DNA from: Marinobacterium jannaschii DSM 6295
GTDB lineage: Bacteria > Pseudomonadota > Gammaproteobacteria > Pseudomonadales > Balneatricaceae
DNA: 64,000 bases
Direction of reading: 5' to 3'
NCBI RefSeq assembly: GCF_000620085.1
Contig: NZ_KK211068.1
Coordinates: forward strand, 19,811-83,810
A model generated the notes under the pieces. The model made no database searches. It was not told where the DNA came from and was given only the letters and a program-made list of their open reading frames with translations. How positions within the stretch are numbered: the first letter of the stretch is position 1; each line of letters begins with the position of its first letter. The translations under genes were made by a program, and so were the position numbers. Below, in pieces: positions 52,633-64,000 of this stretch.

Positions 52633-52774
52633 TTTCCTGGATTTCACTACGTCCACATACAGTCGTCATTCAAACAATAAATCCAAAGAATCAGGCTGCG
52701 TTTTTATCTCAAGCCCGGCATACTGGCGGCTAAGGAAGCTCTGTTTAATGCCATCCAAACAAAGGACTTGTACT

Positions 52775-53752
52775 ATGGATGACTTCTCCCCGTCTGACCT
52801 GAAAACCATTCTCCACTCCAAAAGGGCGAATCTCTACTACCTGCAGCATTGCCGGGTACTGGTGAACGGTGGTCGAGTGGAATACGTCACCGACGAGGCA
52901 AGCCGCTCGCGCTACTGGAATATCCCCATCGCCAACACCACTTGTATCCTGCTGGGCACGGGTACTTCGGTGACACAGGCTGCGATGCGGGAGCTGGCGA
53001 AGGCCGGGGTATTGGTCGGATTCTGTGGCGGTGGCGGCACCCCCTTGTTCAGCGCCAATGAAATGGATGTGGAAGCGGCCTGGTTTGCGCCGCAAAGTGA
53101 ATATCGCCCCACCGAGTACCTGCAACATTGGGTGCGTTTCTGGTTTGATGATGAGCGGCGCCTCAATACCGCCAAACGGATGCAGCAGGCTCGGCTGGAT
53201 CGTATCGCCCACCGCTGGCTGGATAATCGCAGCCTGAAGGATGCGGGCTTCATGCCAGCAGCCGATCAGTTGCAAGCCTTGCTAACAAAACACCGTCATA
53301 GTATTGAACAATCTGGCAATAGCACCGAGCTGCTCACCGGCGAAGCCCGCTTAACCAAATCGCTGTTCGCACTGGCCGCCCGCACCGTCGGTTACGAGGA
53401 CTTTACCCGCGCCAAACGTGGTAAGGGTACAGATCCAGCCAACCGCTTTCTCGATCATGGTAACTATCTGGCTTACGGCCTGGGAGCCACCGCCTGCTGG
53501 GTACTGGGTCTGCCTCATGGATTGGCAGTACTGCACGGCAAAACACGCCGTGGCGGTCTGGTTTTTGATACTGCCGACCTGGTGAAAGACGCCACTATAC
53601 TGCCGCAAGCCTTTATCTCCGCCATGCGTGGTGATGATGAGCAAACCTTTCGCCAAGCCTGCATCGAACAGCTGACCCAGAGCGAAGCCCTCGACTTTAT
53701 GATCGACACCCTTCAACAAGTTGCCCTCGCCGAAGGCAGCGACGCGTTATGA
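52775..53752 (+). CDS. cas1: CRISPR-associated endonuclease Cas1, type I-F
   Basis: Integrase of spacer acquisition, 325 residues. The start at 52775 (MDDFSPSDLKTILHSKRANLYYL) matches the I-F family and has AAAGGA about 8 nt upstream; the frame also extends to 52748. Family segments: WNIPIANTTCILLGTGTS, FCGGGGTPLFSANE, RAKRGKGTDPANRFLDHGNYLAYG (with metal-binding residues) and LPHGLAVLHGKTRRGGLVFD. It acts with the Cas2 domain of the next gene, which it overlaps by 4 nt (ATGA). Confidence 0.97.
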   Translation: MDDFSPSDLKTILHSKRANLYYLQHCRVLVNGGRVEYVTDEASRSRYWNIPIANTTCILLGTGTSVTQAAMRELAKAGVLVGFCGGGGTPLFSANEMDVEAAWFAPQSEYRPTEYLQHWVRFWFDDERRLNTAKRMQQARLDRIAHRWLDNRSLKDAGFMPAADQLQALLTKHRHSIEQSGNSTELLTGEARLTKSLFALAARTVGYEDFTRAKRGKGTDPANRFLDHGNYLAYGLGATACWVLGLPHGLAVLHGKTRRGGLVFDTADLVKDATILPQAFISAMRGDDEQTFRQACIEQLTQSEALDFMIDTLQQVALAEGSDAL

Positions 53753-56700
53753 ATATCCTGTTGATCGCCCAGTGCCAAAAGAATGCGCTGAAAGAAACCC
53801 GCCGCATTCTGGATCAGTTCGCCGAACGCCGTGGCGACCGGAGCTGGCAAACACCAATTACCCAGGCAGGCCTGAATACCCTGCACGCATTGCTACGAAA
53901 AACCGCACGTAAAAACACCGCGGTCGCCTGCCACTGGATACGGGGACGAAATCACAGCGAACTGATATGGATTATCGGCGATGCATCACGCTTTAACAGC
54001 CAGGGTGCCGTCCCCACCAATAGCACCCGCCGCAATGTGCTGCGCCAGCAAGATGAGAACGACTGGCACAGCGGTGAGCTGATCAAACGCCTCGCCATCC
54101 TGGCCGCCTTGCTGCACGACCTGGGGAAGGCCTGTATTGCCTTCCAGAACAAGCTGAAAGATTTTCACCACAGCCCACCCAACCTCTACCGCCATGAGTG
54201 GATATCACTCAGATTGCTACAAAGCTTTGTCGGCAATGACAGCGACGATCAGAGCTGGCTGCAGCGATTGGCCGACACGCCCGGTGATGAGCAGCAATGG
54301 CTGGGCCGCCTGGAACAGGAACAACCTGGTCAGACCAGCTCCGCGCCACTGAAAAACCTACCGCCGCTGGCCCAGATAGTCGGCTGGCTGATCGTCAGCC
54401 ACCACCGACTACCGAAGTTTCCCAACAATGACCCCGACGCCCGTGTCAGCAGTGGTAATCTGAATCGGTTACTCAGCGAGATTACCGCAGCTTGGAATCA
54501 ACCCCACTACACCAATGATCCACCGCAGGATGCCAAACCCTACTGGCAGTTTGATGGCCCGTTGCCGGTAGCCAGTAAACTCTGGCAAAAACAGGTAAGT
54601 CGCACCGCTAATGCCCTGCTGAAGCAGCACAACAGCCCACACCTTACGCCGGATAACGGTTACCTGCTCCATCTGTCGCGACTTAGCCTGATGCTGGCAG
54701 ACCATAACTACTCCAGCCTTAGCGATAAAAGCCACCGCGACTGGGTTGTCGGTGACAGCGCCTGCACTTTGGGCGCAAACACCAAACCGGGACAGCGCGG
54801 CTTCAAACAAACCCTGGATGCCCATCTGTTGGGTGTCGCGCGCCTGGCCGGGCTGGTCGCCCATAGCCTGCCCAAACTGGATGATCACCTGCCCCGCCTG
54901 GCCAACCACAAAGGGCTGAGAAAACGCAGCAAAGCCCCCTTTCAGTGGCAGAACAAAGCCTTTGATCTCGCTGAATCACTTCGCCACGCCAGCGAACAAC
55001 AAGGGTTCTTTGCCATCAACATGGCCTCCACCGGCTGCGGTAAGACACTGGCTAACGCCCGCATCATGTGTGGTTTGGCCGCGCCGGAAAAAGGCGCCCG
55101 TTTCAGTATCGCTTTGGGATTACGCACGCTCACCCTACAAACCGGCGAAGCCCTGCGTAAGCGGTTACATCTCAACGATGACGAACTAGCCATTCGCGTT
55201 GGCGGTAGTGCCAGCCGAAAGCTGTTTGAGCACCAGCAGGAGGAAAAGGAGAGAGAAGGCTCGGAATCCGCCGCCGAGCTTGAAGATGAAAGCTGCCATA
55301 TTTGTTACGAAGGTGACTTTCAGCAGCACCCGCTGCTATCTCGGCTCAGCCATAATCCGGAGATTAAAAAACTGCTGGCTGCTCCCCTTCTCAGCTGTAC
55401 CGTCGACCATCTGGTACCAGCCACTGAAGGCATCCGAGGCGGGCGGCAGATCGCCCCGATGCTGCGCCTGCTTACAGCCGATTTGATACTGGATGAGATA
55501 GACGATTTCGATATCGGAGACCTCCCGGCCCTGACCCGGCTGGTGCATTTCGCCGCGATGCTGGGTTCACGGGTACTGCTCTCCTCCGCCACCCTGCCCC
55601 CGACTCTGGTCGAAGGACTCTACAACGCCTACCGGGATGGTCGCAAAATATACCAGCGCAATAGGGGCGACAAGCCCGGCGCAGAGGTCAATATCTGCTG
55701 CGCCTGGTTCGATGAAAACGCCAGTGCCCACCATGATTGTGCAACCACAGAAACATTCGCCACCGCCCATCAACAGTTTGTAAAACAGCGAACGAAAAAA
55801 CTGGCTACTGCCATAGTGCGCCGCCGGGGAGAACTGATTCCGTTTGAGCCCGGTAAGATCAAAAGTAAACTTATCCGCCAGCAGCTGGCGCAGCTTCTGC
55901 AGCAACAGGCAATAGCCCTGCATCAAGGCCATGCTGAGCAAGATCCACATTCCGGGAAACAGGTCTCATTCGGGCTGATCCGCATGGCCAATATAGAACC
56001 GCTGTTCGATGTCGCCTTGGAGCTGTTCAAGCTGCCTGTCCCTGACGACATACAGATCCACCTCTGCGCCTACCACTCACAGTACCCTTTACTGCTGCGC
56101 TCGCGCATTGAAAAGATGCTGGATGGCTTACTACAACGCCATGATGAAAAAGCAGTGTTTGATCACCCGGAAGTTCGCCAGCGGCTGGATAGCTATAGCG
56201 CCAAAGATCAGATCTTTATTGTACTGGGCTCCCCTGTAACCGAAGTTGGCCGCGACCACGACTATGACTGGGCGATCGTTGAACCCTCCTCCATGCGATC
56301 CATTATCCAGTTAGCCGGGCGTATCCGTCGCCACCGCCCTGGCCCTTGCGAGCTGACCAATATCCAGCTGCTGAATACCAATATGAAAGCACTGGAGTTT
56401 TCCGGTCAGCCTGCCTACTGCAAACCCGGCTTTGAAAATAAAGATAACCGCCTGATCAGTCATCAGCTGGATAGCTTGCTGACCGACCAACAATGGCAAA
56501 CCATCGATGCCCGCCCACGAATTATTGAAGGTGACAGCCTGAACCCGAACAGCAGCCTGGTAGATCTGGAGCATCACCGCCTAAGGAAGCTGATGTATCA
56601 ACCAGCGCCGCAGCAAAACGCTCTAAGTCCGGAAGCACTGGCAAAACTAACACCGCGTCAACGGGACAAGCTCACGCCACCGGAAATACCACTCTGTGCC

Positions 56701-57105
56701 AGCAGCTGGTATCTGCAACCACTGGCACAACTGAGCGGCGACTTGCCCACAATACAACCATTTCGCAAACAAACCGGAGACGAAGTAGAACTGGTGCTAC
56801 TGCCGGATGAGGATGAAGAAGATGCCCTGCTGCATGAAGTGCATCAGCCAGATGGCAGGCGCGGCGACAACTGTTATCTGAATGCAGAAAACAAGTTGCA
56901 GCGCATCGAGCTGGCACCCAATAAAGGCATCGCGATCTGGGGCTGCGAAGACTATATGGAAGCATTGACCGAGCTGGCCGAGAGTATGGAGATGGGGCTT
57001 GATCGCTGCGCAAAAATCTATGGTCGCCTCAGCTTACCCAAACCGGGAGTAGATGGCAGAGGCTGGCGTTTTCACCCGGCGCTGGGTTTTGCAAAGGGGC
57101 AATAG
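53749..57105 (+). CDS. cas3: Cas2-3 fusion, type I-F helicase-nuclease
   Basis: 1118-residue fusion typical of subtype I-F. An N-terminal Cas2 domain (about 1-90) joins Cas1 for integration. An HD nuclease domain follows (LLHDLGKA, His123-Asp124), then an SF2 helicase: Walker A ASTGCGKT (426-433), DEID box (582-585), motif III SSATLPP, and motif VI QLAGRIRRHRPG. It degrades DNA bound by the Csy complex. All key residues are intact. It is slightly longer than the Pseudomonas protein. It is the last gene of the cas1-cas3 unit; csy1 is not next, because a reversed toxin-antitoxin pair intervenes. Confidence 0.97.
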   Translation: MNILLIAQCQKNALKETRRILDQFAERRGDRSWQTPITQAGLNTLHALLRKTARKNTAVACHWIRGRNHSELIWIIGDASRFNSQGAVPTNSTRRNVLRQQDENDWHSGELIKRLAILAALLHDLGKACIAFQNKLKDFHHSPPNLYRHEWISLRLLQSFVGNDSDDQSWLQRLADTPGDEQQWLGRLEQEQPGQTSSAPLKNLPPLAQIVGWLIVSHHRLPKFPNNDPDARVSSGNLNRLLSEITAAWNQPHYTNDPPQDAKPYWQFDGPLPVASKLWQKQVSRTANALLKQHNSPHLTPDNGYLLHLSRLSLMLADHNYSSLSDKSHRDWVVGDSACTLGANTKPGQRGFKQTLDAHLLGVARLAGLVAHSLPKLDDHLPRLANHKGLRKRSKAPFQWQNKAFDLAESLRHASEQQGFFAINMASTGCGKTLANARIMCGLAAPEKGARFSIALGLRTLTLQTGEALRKRLHLNDDELAIRVGGSASRKLFEHQQEEKEREGSESAAELEDESCHICYEGDFQQHPLLSRLSHNPEIKKLLAAPLLSCTVDHLVPATEGIRGGRQIAPMLRLLTADLILDEIDDFDIGDLPALTRLVHFAAMLGSRVLLSSATLPPTLVEGLYNAYRDGRKIYQRNRGDKPGAEVNICCAWFDENASAHHDCATTETFATAHQQFVKQRTKKLATAIVRRRGELIPFEPGKIKSKLIRQQLAQLLQQQAIALHQGHAEQDPHSGKQVSFGLIRMANIEPLFDVALELFKLPVPDDIQIHLCAYHSQYPLLLRSRIEKMLDGLLQRHDEKAVFDHPEVRQRLDSYSAKDQIFIVLGSPVTEVGRDHDYDWAIVEPSSMRSIIQLAGRIRRHRPGPCELTNIQLLNTNMKALEFSGQPAYCKPGFENKDNRLISHQLDSLLTDQQWQTIDARPRIIEGDSLNPNSSLVDLEHHRLRKLMYQPAPQQNALSPEALAKLTPRQRDKLTPPEIPLCASSWYLQPLAQLSGDLPTIQPFRKQTGDEVELVLLPDEDEEDALLHEVHQPDGRRGDNCYLNAENKLQRIELAPNKGIAIWGCEDYMEALTELAESMEMGLDRCAKIYGRLSLPKPGVDGRGWRFHPALGFAKGQ

Positions 57106-57179: not shown

Positions 57180-57572
57180 TCAACCTTGTTGATCCGCCCA
57201 GAGGGAATATAGAACATCTGCGAAATCGACGGCTGTTAGTTCTCCCTTTACCAGATCAACCATCGCATCGGCTAACTGATCATTATCATGGGTCAGTTCG
57301 TAATCATTCAGAGATAGATACTCCAGGCAGACGGCAAGACCAGTGCGTTTGTTGGCGTCCGACAGGTTATGCCCTACTGCGATTACTTGCGCATAGCTGG
57401 CTGCAATTTCGAAAACATCATCTAATCCGCTATAACATATTGCATTGTCCACACGAGCTAGCGCCCCGCAAAGACCACCGTAATCAGGCTGACCGCAATG
57501 CCCTGGCTCAGATTCGAGAATTTTCGAATTAATCTCTAACACTCGCTCAGGGGGGAAGTGGATTAGCTGCAT
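57180..57572 (-). CDS. doc: Death-on-curing (Doc/Fic-fold) toxin
   Basis: 130-residue toxin of the Doc family. The Fic-type catalytic motif HNLSDANKR (68-76) is intact; in phage P1 Doc the similar motif phosphorylates EF-Tu and stops translation. Other family features: YGGLCGALARVDNAICYSGLDD and the C-terminal LWADQ. The start overlaps the antitoxin stop by 1 nt (TAATG), a coupled antitoxin-toxin order. The pair is inverted inside the I-F cas cluster, between cas2-3 and csy1, which are normally adjacent. Activity is inferred from the intact motif. Confidence 0.92.
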   Translation of the reverse strand: MQLIHFPPERVLEINSKILESEPGHCGQPDYGGLCGALARVDNAICYSGLDDVFEIAASYAQVIAVGHNLSDANKRTGLAVCLEYLSLNDYELTHDNDQLADAMVDLVKGELTAVDFADVLYSLWADQQG

Positions 57573-57742
57573 TACATATCAGCCAAGCGAGCAAACGTCT
57601 TTTTATGAGTACGCAGTACCAGCTTGGTTTCAGATTTTACAATCTGTTTCCCAGTCTCACCTTCTAGAGATAGGGACCGCGTCGCCTTGATTTTCGGACG
57701 CTTAACCAGATCAACACCATAACGTCTCTTACTCTGGGACAT
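57572..57742 (-). CDS. Putative antitoxin partner of Doc
   Basis: Small basic protein of 56 residues (MSQSKRRYGVDLVKRPKIK...RTHKKTFARLADM). I do not recognise its DNA-binding family; it is not an obvious Phd. The C-terminal region (about 35-56) is predicted helical and basic, and could be the toxin-neutralising segment. The start taken is the ATG at 57742, with AAGG and GAGG upstream on the minus strand; the open frame extends to 57823. Function is inferred from its position directly upstream of, and coupled to, doc. A TGC-TACTAT extended -10 lies about 45 nt upstream of the start. Confidence 0.75.
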   Translation of the reverse strand: MSQSKRRYGVDLVKRPKIKATRSLSLEGETGKQIVKSETKLVLRTHKKTFARLADM

Positions 57743-57857
57743 AGCCTCAACCTTATAAATCGCATAGTTACGAAGATAGTAGCACAGGCCTCTAAAGCTA
57801 TCTGCACACTGATTGAATGTCATAAATGGATTGAAAGGGCCAGCTCCCTGCGGCCCA

Positions 57858-57930
57858 CTGCCTATTCGGCAGAGTAAAGAGGTAAGAAAACATCAACACT
57901 ATTTTCTAAGCTGCCTTAACGGCAGAAGCA
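57858..57930 (-). ncRNA. Candidate crRNA-like regulatory RNA (CreR/CreA type): two degenerate I-F repeats and a 30-nt pseudo-spacer
   Basis: Read on the minus strand. Pseudo-repeat 1 (57925-57903) has the I-F stem CTGCC/GGCAG with loop GTTAA, followed by the handle CTTAGAAA; 20 of 23 bases equal array 1 repeats, and the handle equals that of the last repeat of array 2. A 30-nt pseudo-spacer (57902-57873) follows. Pseudo-repeat 2 keeps only the stem (CTGCC-GAATA-GGCAG, 57872-57858) and has lost the handle. Cas6f could cut after each GGCAG and give an 8-nt handle, guide and 3' hairpin as in a crRNA. The distance from handle to second stem is 30 nt against 37 in real units, so the complex would be shorter. 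Known parallels are CreA and CreR RNAs, which guide Cascade to partial targets in promoters. No promoter was identified with confidence. Transcription would continue toward the antitoxin-doc pair. Confidence 0.8.
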
Positions 57931-57940
57931 TACACATCCC

Positions 57941-57988
57941 ATCAATCCCCATAGTGCAATTTTTAAAATATCAATACTATGGATTGAT
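57941..57988. repeat. Imperfect 13-bp inverted repeat upstream of csy1
   Basis: The left arm ATCAATCCCCATAGT (57941-57955) and right arm ACTATGGATTGAT (57976-57988) are reverse complements except for two extra C. The 20-nt centre is A/T-rich. Each arm presents CC followed by ATAGT facing inward, so both carry a type I-F PAM and the first bases of the pseudo-spacer. It could be a paired Csy target, or an ordinary repressor operator. Confidence 0.8.
57965..57982 (-). promoter_or_regulatory. Predicted Csy-complex (Cascade) binding target in the csy1 promoter region
   Basis: On the minus strand CC (57982-57981) is followed by ATAGTATTGATATTTT. The pseudo-spacer of the adjacent element begins ATAGTGTTGATGTTTT. 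Of 16 positions, 14 match; the mismatches are at 6 and 12, the positions flipped out of the guide-target duplex in type I complexes, and pairing stops after 16. CC is the I-F PAM. Partial pairing of this length is expected to allow binding without Cas2-3 cleavage. The site abuts the predicted csy1 -35 box. Confidence 0.75.
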
Positions 57989-58012
57989 CGAGATACAAGA
58001 GCACGATAGCAT
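57984..58012 (+). promoter_or_regulatory. Predicted csy1-csy4 promoter
   Basis: TTGATC (57984-57989), a 17-nt spacer and TAGCAT (58007-58012) each match 4 of 6 consensus positions. An A/T-rich tract directly upstream (57958-57980) could be an UP element. The start of transcription would be near 58019, about 47 nt before csy1. The prediction is moderate; the position just downstream of the Csy target is what makes it relevant. Confidence 0.5.
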
Positions 58013-58065: not shown

Positions 58066-59343
58066 ATGACTAATACTCCACAGGGAACCGGAGCACTTCG
58101 CCAGCTGATGCAGGGCTTTATTGCCGAACGCCTGCAAAGCAAGGTGGAAAAGCTGGCACCGGATGACCCTCGCTATGAAAAGCTGCAACAGCAATATCAA
58201 TACGCCAACTGGCTGGAGGACGCCGCCCGGCGAGTCAGCCAGCTGCAGGTGGTCACCCACTCGCTGAAGGCGGTGCATCCCGATGCCCGTGGCACTAATC
58301 TCTTCGTCGAGCCCGACAACCTAAACCAACACCCGCTAATCGGCAGTCATCTGCTGGATGATAACTTTGCGCCTGATGTTGTCGGCAATGCTGCCGCATT
58401 AGATGTCTATAAATTTCTGAAGCTGGAACAAGACGGTGCTAGCCTGCTAAGCCTGGCAAAGGCTGGTGATGCCGCTTTTAAAGCGGCACTCAGCGACAAC
58501 CCAGAACAAGCCGATGCATGGTGCAGTGCCTTTGCCGGTATCACCGAAGGCGGTACAGCCCCCTCCAGCCACAGTCGCGCCAAGCAGCTGTACTGGCTCG
58601 TCGGTGAAGACCCGACCGATAACGATGATTACCATCTACTGGCGCCGCTGCATGCCACCTCGCTCACGCATCGAATATTCACTGAACTGAATGAGTGTCG
58701 CTTTGGCGATGCGTTCAAAGCAGCCCGTCAGGCCCGGCGCGATAAAAAGGAAGGCCAGCCTTACTACGACTATCCCAACCTGGCGGTACGTAAGCTAGGT
58801 GGGACTAAGCCGCAGAATATATCCCAACTTAATAGCGAACGGGGCGGAGTCAATTATCAACTGGCTTCCCTGCCTCCAGTCTGGCGCACCCAGGCCGTGC
58901 GTCCCATTTACAACACCGATTCGGCGATCGGCAGCTATCACCGTCGTCAGAATGTACGCCAAGCGTTGAAGCAGTTGCTGCGTTTGCTAAAAACAGCCGC
59001 AGACAATATGCGAGTCCACCTGCTGATTGATGAACAGATCGACACACTGCTAGATGAGCTGATTCTGTTTAGCGCGGAGCTACGTAGCCTGACACCAGGC
59101 TGGAGCAATCACCCGGATTGCCGTCTGCTCGACTGGCAACGCTGCTGGCTCGATAGCGGTGCTGAGTTTGATGAGGAGCCGCCCACGCAATGGACCACCG
59201 AAGTCTGTCGCAGCTTCGCCCTATGGCTGAACCAGCAATTGAAAAATGCAGACCTCCTCACCGCCGACCAGGAACATAACGAATGGGCACGCAGGATGAA
59301 AAAACGCCTGCATGAGCTGGAAGAGGAGCTACAGCATGACTGA
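58066..59343 (+). CDS. csy1: Csy1 / Cas8f, large subunit of the type I-F Csy complex
   Basis: 425-residue Cas8f. With Csy2 it holds the crRNA 5' handle and recognises the CC PAM. It starts at 58066 with GAGG 5 nt upstream. Features: YQYANWLEDAARRVSQLQVVTHSLKAVHPDARGTNLF, the central SKAKQL-like SRAKQLYWL, and SLPPVWRTQAVRPIYNTDSAIGSY near residue 270. It ends 8 nt inside csy2. It is the first gene of the csy1-2-3-4 operon, separated from cas2-3 by about 960 bp. Confidence 0.95.
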   Translation: MTNTPQGTGALRQLMQGFIAERLQSKVEKLAPDDPRYEKLQQQYQYANWLEDAARRVSQLQVVTHSLKAVHPDARGTNLFVEPDNLNQHPLIGSHLLDDNFAPDVVGNAAALDVYKFLKLEQDGASLLSLAKAGDAAFKAALSDNPEQADAWCSAFAGITEGGTAPSSHSRAKQLYWLVGEDPTDNDDYHLLAPLHATSLTHRIFTELNECRFGDAFKAARQARRDKKEGQPYYDYPNLAVRKLGGTKPQNISQLNSERGGVNYQLASLPPVWRTQAVRPIYNTDSAIGSYHRRQNVRQALKQLLRLLKTAADNMRVHLLIDEQIDTLLDELILFSAELRSLTPGWSNHPDCRLLDWQRCWLDSGAEFDEEPPTQWTTEVCRSFALWLNQQLKNADLLTADQEHNEWARRMKKRLHELEEELQHD

Positions 59344-60301
59344 TCCGCAACATCTGCTGGTACTGCCCCGGCTACGTATCCAAAACGCCAATGCGATCTC
59401 CAGCCCTTTGACCTGGGGTTTTCCGGCAATGAGCGCCTTTACTGGCTTTATGCAGGCGCTGGAGCGCAAGGTCATGCATCTGGGGCTGATGTTTGAAGGT
59501 ATTGGGGTGGTCTGTCACCAACACCAGGCACAAACCAGCCGGGGCTTTGTCCATCAGTTCCACCAAACCCGTAACCCGGTGGGCAAAGATGGCAAGACGG
59601 CCGCCATCGTCGAAGAGGGACGAATCCACCTTGAAGTTACACTGATTCTGGCTGTCAGGGGTGACGCCTGCCAGGAGCCTGATAAATATAGCCGCGCCCG
59701 CACCGTTGCTGAAGTGGCTGAGATAGCTGCAGGTATGAGGATCGCTGGCGGTTCAGTGCTGCCCGGCGAGCAACGCTATCAACCGGAGCTGATCAATATC
59801 GCAGGCCCGGAGGGCGATAAAGCGTTTCGCCGCCTGCGCCGTCGCTGCCTGCCTGGATTTGCCCTGGTACTGCGCGATGACCTTCTACACAGTCATCATC
59901 AAAGCCTACAGGCCGAACAACCCGATACAGACCTGCTGGATGCCTGGCTGGATATGAACCGCCTGCACCATCAATATGGCCCGCACCAGGTGACCGATGC
60001 CAACGGAAAGGCCAGCGAACAGATCGGTTGGTACTCCCAACGATCCCCCGGCTGGCTGGTCCCGATTCCTGTGGGGTATGGCGGCCTGTCTGAGCTTCAC
60101 CCGGCGGGCACTGTAAGCGGTACCCGCGACAGCACCACCCCCGTGTGTTTTGTAGAAAGCCTCTACTCGATGGGACAGTGGCTAAGCCCTCACCGACTGC
60201 AATCCGCCCGTCAACTGCTCTGGTATGTGGATAACAATCTCTACCAGCAGCGCTACCGACTGAACAACGATTATGCCCCTCTGGCGGGCAATGACGCATA
60301 A
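59336..60301 (+). CDS. csy2: Csy2 / Cas5f, type I-F Csy complex subunit
   Basis: 321-residue Cas5f that binds the crRNA 5' handle with Csy1. The start taken is 59336 (MTDPQHLLVLPRLRIQNANAIS), 8 nt inside csy1 with GAGGAG upstream; a longer frame to 59312 lacks a ribosome-binding site. Family segments: SSPLTWGFPAMSAFTGFMQALERK and GWYSQRSPGWLVPIPVGYGGL. Confidence 0.95.
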   Translation: MTDPQHLLVLPRLRIQNANAISSPLTWGFPAMSAFTGFMQALERKVMHLGLMFEGIGVVCHQHQAQTSRGFVHQFHQTRNPVGKDGKTAAIVEEGRIHLEVTLILAVRGDACQEPDKYSRARTVAEVAEIAAGMRIAGGSVLPGEQRYQPELINIAGPEGDKAFRRLRRRCLPGFALVLRDDLLHSHHQSLQAEQPDTDLLDAWLDMNRLHHQYGPHQVTDANGKASEQIGWYSQRSPGWLVPIPVGYGGLSELHPAGTVSGTRDSTTPVCFVESLYSMGQWLSPHRLQSARQLLWYVDNNLYQQRYRLNNDYAPLAGNDA

Positions 60302-60314
60302 AAGGACTTAAATC

Positions 60315-61352
60315 ATGAGCACAACTCCATTGAAAACCGCTTCTGTACTGGCATTCGAACGTAAACTGGATCCATCCGATGCCTTGATGTATGCCGGTCG
60401 CTGGGATGACCGCAAAGACAGCAGCGTCTGGCCCGCCATTGCAGTGCAGGAAAAGTCGGTGCGCGGCACTATCTCCAACCGCCTGAAAGGCAGCAAGGCT
60501 GACCCGGCCAAGCTGGATGCTGAAATCTCCAACCCCAACCTGCAAACCGTCGATACCGCTGCCCTGCCCGCCGAGGCGGACACCCTGAAAGTACGCTTTA
60601 CCCTGCGTATCCTGGGCGGCACCGGCACGCCCTCAGCCTGCAACAGCGCTCCCTACCAGGCCCGACTGCAGGAGGTGGTAAAGGGGTACGCTGAAGAGCA
60701 AGGCTTTGCCACCCTGGCCTGGCGTTATGCTTGTAACCTGGCCAATGGCCGTTTCCTGTGGCGCAACCGGGTCGGTGCAGAGGCAGTAGAAGTACAGATT
60801 AATCAGCTCGAAAAAGGCGCGTCCGCACAAAGCTGGAGCTTCGATGCGCAAACCCTGTCACTGCGTCATTTCGATGCCAACGACACGGCAAAAGACAATC
60901 TGACCACCCTGGCTGAAGCGATAGAAAATGGCCTTAATGGCGAGCGCTATACCCTGCTGGAAATTACTGCCTTTGTGCGGCTGGGTGCTGGCCAGGAAGT
61001 GTTTCCTTCACAGGAGCTGATTCTGGATCGGGGCCGGGGCGATAAAAGCCGCACCCTATATCAGGTCAATGAGATCGCCGGTATCCACTCTCAGAAGCTG
61101 GGCAATGCGATCCGCACTATCGACGACTGGTACCCGCAAACCGAAGCGACTGAAGGGCTTGGCCCCATCGCTGCCGAACCCTATGGCTCCGTCACCACCC
61201 GCGGTATGGCCTGCCGCCAGCCAAAACAGAAGGAAGACTTCTACTCCCTGCTGGATAACTGGCTGCTGAAAGAGAAAGTACCAAGCGTAGAGAACCAACA
61301 CTATGTGATGGCTATCCTGATTCGCGGCGGAGTGTTTGGGGAGGCCAACTGA
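60315..61352 (+). CDS. csy3: Csy3 / Cas7f, backbone subunit of the type I-F Csy complex
   Basis: 345-residue Cas7f; six copies normally coat the guide in 6-nt steps, flipping out every sixth base. It begins [23 protein letters not shown] and holds [11 protein letters not shown] and [28 protein letters not shown] lies 9 nt upstream of the ATG. It overlaps csy4 by 1 nt (TGATG). Confidence 0.96.
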
Positions 61353-61915
61353 TGCTGAGCCACTATCTGGAGATCAGCATCCTGCCAGACCCGGAGTTCA
61401 GCACCCCGATGCTGATGAACGCCCTGCTATGCAAACTGCACCGGGCACTGGTTAGCCAGCCAGAGGTGGAAGTCGCTCTCAGCTTTCCGGGATACAGTCG
61501 TGATCCGCGTTCACTGGGAGACCGACTTCGCCTCCACGGCAGCGCCGATGCACTGGATCAGTTAGGTAACAGCTGGCTACGCGGTATGGCAGACCATATC
61601 AACAGCACCGGGATTGAACCGATCCCGCAGACAGCTAGCTACTGCACAGTGCGCCGCCGTCAGTTTAAATCCAGTGCCGAGCGGTTACGCCGCCGCCGTA
61701 TGAAGCGCCATGGCGAAAGCTATGAGCAAGCCGCAGCACTGATTCCTGATAGTGTGGAACGCAAGTCACAGCTGCCCTTTGCCACTCTGCGCAGCACCAG
61801 CAGCGGCCAGCAGTTCCAGCTATTTATCGAGCAGAGCGAAGCTACGGCAGAACCGAAAGACGGGACCTTTAACCGCTACGGTTTAAGCCAGCAAGCCACC
61901 GTACCCTGGTTTTAA
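61352..61915 (+). CDS. cas6f: Csy4 / Cas6f, crRNA-processing endoribonuclease
   Basis: 187 residues, the same length as the Pseudomonas enzyme. It cuts the pre-crRNA at the 3' base of each repeat stem. The catalytic His30 (CKLHRAL), Ser148 (TLRSTSSGQ) and Tyr176 (FNRYGLS) are all present, as is the arginine-rich RNA-binding helix SAERLRRRRMKRH (108-120). The protein ends with the family signature VPWF. It recognises the CTGCC/GGCAG stem found in both arrays and in the two pseudo-repeats upstream of csy1. Confidence 0.97.
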   Translation: MLSHYLEISILPDPEFSTPMLMNALLCKLHRALVSQPEVEVALSFPGYSRDPRSLGDRLRLHGSADALDQLGNSWLRGMADHINSTGIEPIPQTASYCTVRRRQFKSSAERLRRRRMKRHGESYEQAAALIPDSVERKSQLPFATLRSTSSGQQFQLFIEQSEATAEPKDGTFNRYGLSQQATVPWF

Positions 61916-62043: not shown

Positions 62044-64000
62044 CTTCACTGCCGCACAGGCAGCTAAGAAACATCTCAGCAGTCGATGTAAGGAGCTGAC
62101 TAACTTCACTGCCGCACAGGCAGCTAAGAAAGACAGCGCTAAACGGGTGTTTGTGGATCTGCACTTCACTGCCGCACAGGCAGCTAAGAAAATAGCGATG
62201 CTGGATCCCGCAATCAATGCAGTCTTCACTGCCGCACAGGCAGCTAAGAAAAGTGCCAGCTTCCAGCTATCAAAGCGCTTATACTTCACTGCCGCACAGG
62301 CAGCTAAGAAACACGCCCAGGCAGGCAGCCCCGCAGACACAGTCTTCACTGCCGCACAGGCAGCTAAGAAAAGTGCCAGCTTCCAGCTATCAAAGCGCTT
62401 ATACTTCACTGCCGCACAGGCAGCTAAGAAACACGCCCAGGCAGGCAGCCCCGCAGACACAGTCTTCACTGCCGCACAGGCAGCTAAGAAACGGTGGAAG
62501 CGAGCACCGTCAGATAATCTGCTCTTCACTGCCGCACAGGCAGCTAAGAAATGCGAAATATTCGTAATGCGCCCCCTGATCCCCTTCACTGCCGCACAGG
62601 CAGCTAAGAAAGTGACACCGGAGTCTAAGACCAGATTGCTCTCCTTCACTGCCGCACAGGCAGCTAAGAAATGCAGGAAGCAGGATTGATGGCAAAAATC
62701 AGACTTCACTGCCGCACAGGCAGCTAAGAAATCAGATACCCGGGCCGGTTTTCGGCGGATCAGCTTCACTGCCGCACAGGCAGCTAAGAAAACCGCCAGA
62801 ACACCAATACAACGGCCGTAGCACTTCACTGCCGCACAGGCAGCTAAGAAATGGATATCGAGACAGATGAAAAGGGCCGCAACCTTCACTGCCGCACAGG
62901 CAGCTAAGAAAGCTACCGAACCTCTTGCCTGCTAACGCAACGTCTTCACTGCCGCACAGGCAGCTAAGAAATTCACCCGCCAGCGCACCCAGCGGGCTAT
63001 ATCCTTCACTGCCGCACAGGCAGCTAAGAAAATAAAGATCAATGGCATAGATATGCCGCTTTACTTCACTGCCGCACAGGCAGCTAAGAAAATTGTACCA
63101 ATTACCCACATAGTGGAAGAGGGCTTCACTGCCGCACAGGCAGCTAAGAAAAATGAAACCCGTGTGGCAGCGCTGGATACTCGCTTCACTGCCGCACAGG
63201 CAGCTAAGAAAACTATCGAGGGTTAACGATGAAAGTCGGTCAACTTCACTGCCGCACAGGCAGCTAAGAAAAGAACCCCAGCGTGTTGCTTACGCCGGTT
63301 GTGCTTCACTGCCGCACAGGCAGCTAAGAAAAATAATGCCGCTGTCACCGCAACATCGACCGCCTTCACTGCCGCACAGGCAGCTAAGAAAAATCGAAGT
63401 CATAAACGGCTTTTCGCGGCATACTTCACTGCCGCACAGGCAGCTAAGAAAATCGATTATTTCCATTCCATTCAATTGGAGGCCTTCACTGCCGCACAGG
63501 CAGCTAAGAAATTGCATAATCGCCCAGCCCATTGCCTACAGAACTTCACTGCCGCACAGGCAGCTAAGAAAACCGGCAGCGCTTGCCTAATGACTGTAGC
63601 CACCTTCACTGCCGCACAGGCAGCTAAGAAAAAGGAGATTCCCCGCCGGGGCGTGCCGCATATCTTCACTGCCGCACAGGCAGCTAAGAAAAGCTCGCCA
63701 GCGCGAACACCCAGCAATAGGTACTTCACTGCCGCACAGGCAGCTCAGAAATGAAGGGCAGTCATACATGCTTTTGTGCCTGTGTTCACTGCCGCACAGG
63801 CAGCTCAGAAAATCAGGCCCGTATTTTTTCTGACACTCATCGTGTTCACTGCCGCACAGGCAGCTCAGAAATTACGACCCTGAATTACGTTTTTCATCCT
63901 TTAGTTCACTGCCGCACAGGCAGCTCAGAAATACTGTCCAACCGCTTTTAGCTGGCTGTTTCAGTTCACTGCCGCACAGGCAGCTTAGAAAAATACAGTG
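62044..64000 (+). CRISPR. Type I-F CRISPR array 2 (33 repeats in window, continues or ends at the edge)
   Basis: Repeats start every 60 bases exactly from 62044 to 63964: 28-nt repeats and 32 complete 32-nt spacers. The common repeat starts CTTCA, with stem CTGCC/GGCAG, loop GCACA and handle CTAAGAAA. It differs from array 1 at positions 1 (C for G) and 12 (C for T). Repeats 29-32 have the handle CTCAGAAA and repeat 33 has CTTAGAAA; repeats 30-33 start with G. Spacers 4 and 5 recur as spacers 6 and 7. The last 9 bases after repeat 33 may be a spacer or the trailer. Confidence 0.98.

Follow-up and report, generated by a model that had tools for sequence, protein, structure and literature searches.

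The window, that is the whole 64 kb stretch of DNA analysed here, carries a type I-F CRISPR-Cas locus whose genes lie on the plus strand in the order cas1, cas2-3, csy1, csy2, csy3 and csy4. By profile matches, cas1 and cas2-3 (52748..57105, plus strand) belong to the same I-F system as csy1-4. The latter are led by csy1 (cas8f; 58066..59343, plus strand; PF09611 and TIGR02564), with csy2, csy3 and csy4 (cas6f) at 59312..61915 on the same strand. There are two CRISPR arrays with 60-nt spacing, one running from 52088 and another from 62044.

Between the end of cas2-3 (57105) and the start of csy1 (58066) the minus strand holds a Doc toxin, a small ORF and a mini-array. The Doc-family toxin (57180-57572, minus strand) matches Fic/DOC_P1. 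The small antitoxin-like ORF (57572-57823, minus strand), for which the alternative start at 57742 looks likelier, was assigned no family in the profile searches. The two genes are probably independent cargo. Because this opposite-strand pair interrupts the cas operon, csy1-4 likely need their own promoter here.

Across the loci studied below, seven different toxin-antitoxin-like pairs occupy the gap between cas3 and csy1, all on the strand opposite to csy1. They are Doc, HicAB-like, an HTH antitoxin pair (HigBA-like), PIN-Phd, a nucleotidyltransferase pair, ParE and HipBA-like, where Pfam backs at least one partner of each pair and the remainder was named by eye; they are located in the window (57180-57823) and in L088, L111, L118, L121, L077/L116 and L103/L098. 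The window's own genome also has a second csy1-4 operon (L042 5452-9328; G000:C11, about 139-143 kb), whose csy1 is about 42-44% identical to that of the window. No cas1 or cas3 match was found within the 19 kb region taken around it; a small array of few repeats lies behind its csy4, and antiporter and chemotaxis-type genes are its neighbours.

The mini-array consists of two degenerate I-F repeats around a guide, all on the minus strand, as the first-pass annotation had described for 57930-57858. The first repeat (57903..57930) is identical to the array repeat at 20/28 positions and keeps 5/5 stem pairs; its handle, CTTAGAAA, lies at 57910-57903. The second repeat (57850..57877) contains the hairpin CTGCCGAATAGGCAG, that is CTGCC-GAATA-GGCAG, at 57872-57858. 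An ordinary CRISPR array has near-identical repeats and a 32-nt spacer, whereas here the repeats are degenerate and the guide (57878..57902) is 25 nt long in the repeat register. The pseudo-spacer had earlier been given as 30 nt, which is correct when measured from handle to hairpin but not in the repeat register. The RNA length proposed at the same time agrees with the sequence: from the start of the handle to the end of the second hairpin there are 53 nt, and this would be the Cas6f product (57858..57910, minus strand; 8 nt of handle, 30 nt and 15 nt of hairpin).

The Rfam model CRISPR-DR4 gives the first repeat 20 bits, below its gathering score of 35. The predicted RNA fold is not clearly better than that of shuffled sequences (z -1.55, 14/200 shuffles as good), and it pairs 57907-57885, which includes part of the guide, with itself. 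A G+C-rich hairpin followed by TTTC (57837..57856, minus strand) is a weak candidate for the point where the guide transcript stops; no terminator came out of the terminator scan.

In the array that begins at 62044 the last repeats carry CTTAGAAA, and most of its repeats CTAAGAAA (L140, G000:C11:83000-93000). That the mini-array shares CTTAGAAA with the terminal repeats suggests that it split from an older repeat form. The window's own genome holds no further copy of the guide within 3 mismatches. In a viral scan for the handle end plus seed, 7 contigs matched, with no repeat beside the matches. A likeness of the guide region to a gene start (26 nt, E 7.5e-4; L125 at about 1500-1525) in G028, a genome of the family and the one with such a hit among 115 other genomes searched, was rejected as chance, having no CC and a 2-nt gap.

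A target (protospacer) for this guide lies on the same strand at 57980-57965. It matches the guide at 14/16 bases, the mismatches being at positions 6 and 12, and it is preceded by a CC PAM (57981..57982, minus strand), exactly as had been noted before. Pairing stops after base 16: positions 17-25 match at 2 only. Within the 5.18 Mb genome a single site combines CC with 14/14 informative matches, and this is the target of the window. At least 11/14 informative matches are reached in the 64 kb window by the guide itself, the target and four other sites, and CC is present only at the target. Shuffled guides reached the observed score within this interval in 0/300 cases. The chance that two mismatches in 16 land on both 6 and 12 is 1/120, and the same two positions dominate the mismatches in the family, so the earlier argument that this register is unlikely to arise by chance holds.

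The target lies within an inverted repeat at 57941-57988, which reads ATCAATCC..ATAGT / ACTAT..GGATTGAT on the plus strand. A second, inverted site, CC-ATAGTG at 57949-57956 (plus strand), lies on the other arm of this repeat; it was considered as an extra target and rejected, as just 6 seed bases match. For seven other loci with a mini-array, no runner-up target with a seed run above 3 was present in the top-three lists.

To see these features in context we compared 82 distinct csy1 loci: 20 regions from near genomes, 71 from named species and the window, minus 10 duplicates. The near-genome regions, 20 of 32 matches listed, include the second csy operon of the window's genome. In 37/82 loci csy1 is preceded by a mini-array that has a CC target of its own (at least 12/14 informative matches). 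A strict detector finds mini-arrays in 36 loci, and in 35 of these the own gap contains a CC target of at least 12/14; the exception, L094, reaches 12 using its neighbouring repeat. A looser scan adds L088 (13/14) and L118 (11/14), the latter being left out of the pair count, so that the total is 37. Several 14/14 entries of the looser scan are candidate self-matches, where CC happens to precede, and were set aside by eye; the mismatch, flipped-base, promoter and TTGA analyses excluded self-matches by script. Because its guide is nearly palindromic, L082 has two equal target candidates, of which the site at -269 was used for the layout classes and the one at -383 for pair detection and the TTGA analyses.

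The presence of a pair depends on the length of the gap, where gap lengths, like target distances, use estimated csy1 starts. Below 150 nt there are 26 loci and 0 mini-arrays, though one would hardly fit. At 150 nt or more there are 50 loci, 36 with a pair and 14 without a detected pair. In the 6 loci where no cas3 was matched upstream, one pair was found (L113).

The guides differ widely among the 37 paired loci. When guides were swapped onto foreign gaps, at least 12 matches were reached in 13/1260 tests, each of these 13 involving loci whose guides resemble each other. For each of the first 8 pairs, 0/300 shuffled guides came up to the observed total, and among loci without a strict mini-array shuffled candidates reached 12 in 1/1140. 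Further, when no PAM was required, CC still preceded the best non-self match in 34/36. Fine-scale changes agree with this. In three related loci guide and target share changes at position 9, where L064 has A and L070 and L074 have C, and at position 10, where L074 has T and the other two have A; in L064 and L074 they also change alike at position 14. The comparison in relatives that had been proposed as a check on the pair therefore came out in its favour. This comparison shows that guide and target change together across lineages, and their coevolution can be seen both in the Pseudomonadota and in two loci of Thermodesulfobacteriota. The window's own pair has no near relative for such an analysis, since its closest relative, L033, is without the element.

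For targets chosen blind to phase, the mismatches in the 37 pairs at positions 1-17 are 0, 0, 0, 0, 0, 29, 1, 4, 2, 5, 1, 27, 0, 10, 9, 5 and 5. Position 6 is thus mismatched in 29/37 pairs and position 12 in 27/37, and elsewhere in this range the counts are 0-10.

The flipped-out target bases also have a composition of their own. Positions 6, 12 and 18 are A in 75/111 cells (37 targets), and in 44/69 when one locus is kept per cluster (23 clusters, at a cut-off set by us). Random positions of the same targets reach this enrichment in 0/20000 trials in both data sets. One possible cause is that A-T pairs may be cheaper to open at bases where this expense is not recovered by pairing with the RNA; no published explanation surfaced in the literature listings, which is weak evidence of absence. 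Base 1 of the target is A or T in 37/37 loci and base 7 is A in none of the 37.

By their distance to csy1 the 37 targets fall into two layouts: 9 are compact, at 47-97 nt ahead of where csy1 is estimated to start, and 28 are distal (at least 138 nt). The window belongs to the compact layout, with 69 nt from the target to the csy1 ribosome-binding region. The csy1 tree of the 82 loci has several long branches, and the layout labels on it were assigned by us. It requires 7 changes of the compact label and 16 of the distal label, of which well-supported branches force 7 and 15. L033, the sister of the window, has a short gap and no mini-array element; L034, of the same genus (Pontibacterium granulatum, via the duplicate L054), has an unrelated guide with its own matching target; and the compact locus L088 sits among distal Vreelandella loci. 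Taken together, the tree and these three loci indicate that the element seems to have been gained, lost and switched between layouts often.

The predicted csy1 promoter (57984..58012, plus strand) consists of TTGATC (57984-57989), a 17-nt spacer and TAGCAT (58007-58012), with 8/12 consensus bases. It is the best-scoring candidate there under looser scoring. A stricter sigma-70 scan (9/12 consensus) found no promoter upstream of csy1, and the assignment was made from the looser score together with a pattern in the family, TTGA next to the PAM. The complement of the PAM, GG on the plus strand, has TTGA within 1-3 nt after it for 18/32 minus-oriented targets, compared with 26/1147 other GGs in the same gaps, counts that come from related loci and hence are not independent. 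For the compact loci with a minus-oriented target, TTGA comes right after the PAM in 3/6 (the window, L035 and L060); the other 3 compact targets are plus-oriented, and to them the pattern is not applicable.

In the window the PAM ends one base ahead of the -35-like TTGATC, and csy1 is the first gene downstream. This arrangement makes autorepression of csy1-4 much the best reading: the element is very likely a stand-alone mini-CRISPR whose guide RNA would hold the Csy complex at the predicted csy1 promoter, so that csy1-4 repress themselves in the manner of CreR. The locus has the sequence features of a CreR-type autorepressor, with a crRNA-like unit of degenerate repeats near cas genes, a CC-flanked partial target (14/16) at a predicted cas promoter, and no toxin gene between target and csy1.

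The course of such a regulation would be as follows. Cas6f would cut the mini-array transcript into the 53-nt guide RNA, which would load the Csy complex onto the target beside the csy1 promoter. With pairing that ends near base 16, the complex would bind without licensing Cas3, and its PAM end would stand in the way of RNA polymerase at the -35 box. Both of these steps are inferred from what is established about type I effectors. A shortage of Csy, its titration by crRNAs or its inhibition by an anti-CRISPR would relax the repression and let csy1-4 expression increase.

A guide in this gap may have another function. In the I-F systems of Acinetobacter the same cas3-csy1 gap is known to hold CreTA, whose target is flanked by CC and mismatched at 6, 11 and 18 (PMC10097628). 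By analogy the guide of the window would be the antitoxin CreA, and Csy would repress a small RNA toxin between the target and csy1. The relatives are instructive here, as 22/28 distal loci have a strong Shine-Dalgarno match (at least 6 nt) between target and csy1, and many of them a similar start, such as ATGATTGGCTATCG, in the same interval, as creT of this gap in Acinetobacter would predict. In the window, however, the 69-nt interval is without a Shine-Dalgarno match of at least 5 nt, as are the 8 other compact loci (0/9 in all). Being shorter, the compact intervals would contain such a match by chance less often, which favours this contrast between the layouts and somewhat weakens the argument against CreTA. 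The sole open frame in the interval of the window (20 codons from 58013) runs into csy1, again with no Shine-Dalgarno match of at least 5 nt ahead of it. Because the creT signal is absent between target and csy1, CreTA was rejected for the window, and we consider it very improbable there. That csy1 itself is the regulated gene, as the first-pass annotation held, is instead backed by three features: the layout is compact, a CreT-like signal is lacking, and a -35-like box lies beside the PAM. The self-repression circuit of that annotation is well supported as a prediction.

Another candidate for control by the guide is the Doc toxin-antitoxin pair, located downstream on the strand of the mini-array and starting immediately behind it; loss of Csy would then free the toxin. 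Six other toxin-antitoxin-like kinds share gap and strand in the relatives. Mini-arrays aimed at toxin-antitoxin cargo have reportedly been described by Shmakov in 2023. Further, in PMC12737573 CrePA is a case of a guide acting on a protein toxin. Against this, 140-240 nt separate the target from the Doc pair downstream of it, a stretch that includes the mini-array and a hairpin, and a better promoter candidate for the pair on that strand lies behind the mini-array at 57823-57795 (7.4, compared with at most 4.5 near the target; the scores are weak). Six compact loci have the same layout in gaps of 210-255 nt, too short for a toxin-antitoxin pair. There is little chance that the Doc pair is what the guide controls.

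That the element is a decayed CRISPR remnant, its likeness to the site upstream of csy1 being due to chance or duplicated DNA, would agree with the degenerate repeats, the sub-threshold Rfam match and the closest relative being without it, yet this is strongly disfavoured and hardly credible given the unique CC-flanked 14/14 site in 5.18 Mb, the matched pairs in 37/82 loci with their swap and shuffle controls, and the clustering of mismatches in sixth-base phase.

Self-repression of csy1-4 is itself opposed by a few observations: a promoter that has 8/12 consensus bases and escapes the strict scan, TTGA beside the PAM in just 3/6 minus-oriented compact loci while 3 compact targets are plus-oriented, an RNA fold near that of shuffles, 14/50 long gaps without a pair, and the sister locus without the element. 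A wider reading, to which we give somewhat less than even credence, is that I-F cas3-csy1 gaps share one RNA-guided operator, with the PAM at the -35 box, pairing that ends at about 17 and A at the flipped bases, which switches between silencing of csy1 and silencing of an RNA toxin, the window being in the self-repression state. If so, self-repression and CRISPR addiction would be two states of one switch. The comparison gives rules that can be tested, namely the position of the complex relative to the -35 box, the pairing length and A at flipped target bases. Further, a compact or distal target together with the presence or absence of a creT signal provides a sequence test that parts self-repression from an RNA-toxin addiction module.

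The principle that crRNA-like RNAs control cas genes is already known, and the window adds an I-F example. Shmakov is also said to have described, in 2023, stand-alone repeats whose spacer has a partial match to cas8 promoters, with one I-F1 case tested. CreR is named for I-B, I-E and V-A in PMC13131331, whereas the window is I-F and known here from its sequence; the logic of self-repression appears also in PMC12737573 and PMC12948488. In these accounts CreR, like the element of the window, is a crRNA-like RNA from a mini-CRISPR with a partial match to a cas promoter, by which the effector is predicted to repress itself. The I-F CreTA, as presented in PMC10097628, has in common with the window the cas3-csy1 gap, two degenerate repeats, Csy4-type hairpins, the divergent orientation and a CC-flanked partial target with a mismatch at 6. 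However, CreTA needs a creT mini-ORF with a strong Shine-Dalgarno sequence past the target, and in the window csy1 follows directly without one. A stand-alone I-F repeat processed by Cas6f is found in Racr too, according to PMC10651486, and in the window such processing is predicted; Racrs are there solitary repeats in viral genomes, while the unit of the window has two repeats and its matched target lies in the cas locus of the host. The window thus adds an I-F case of a CRISPR effector that appears to regulate its own level.
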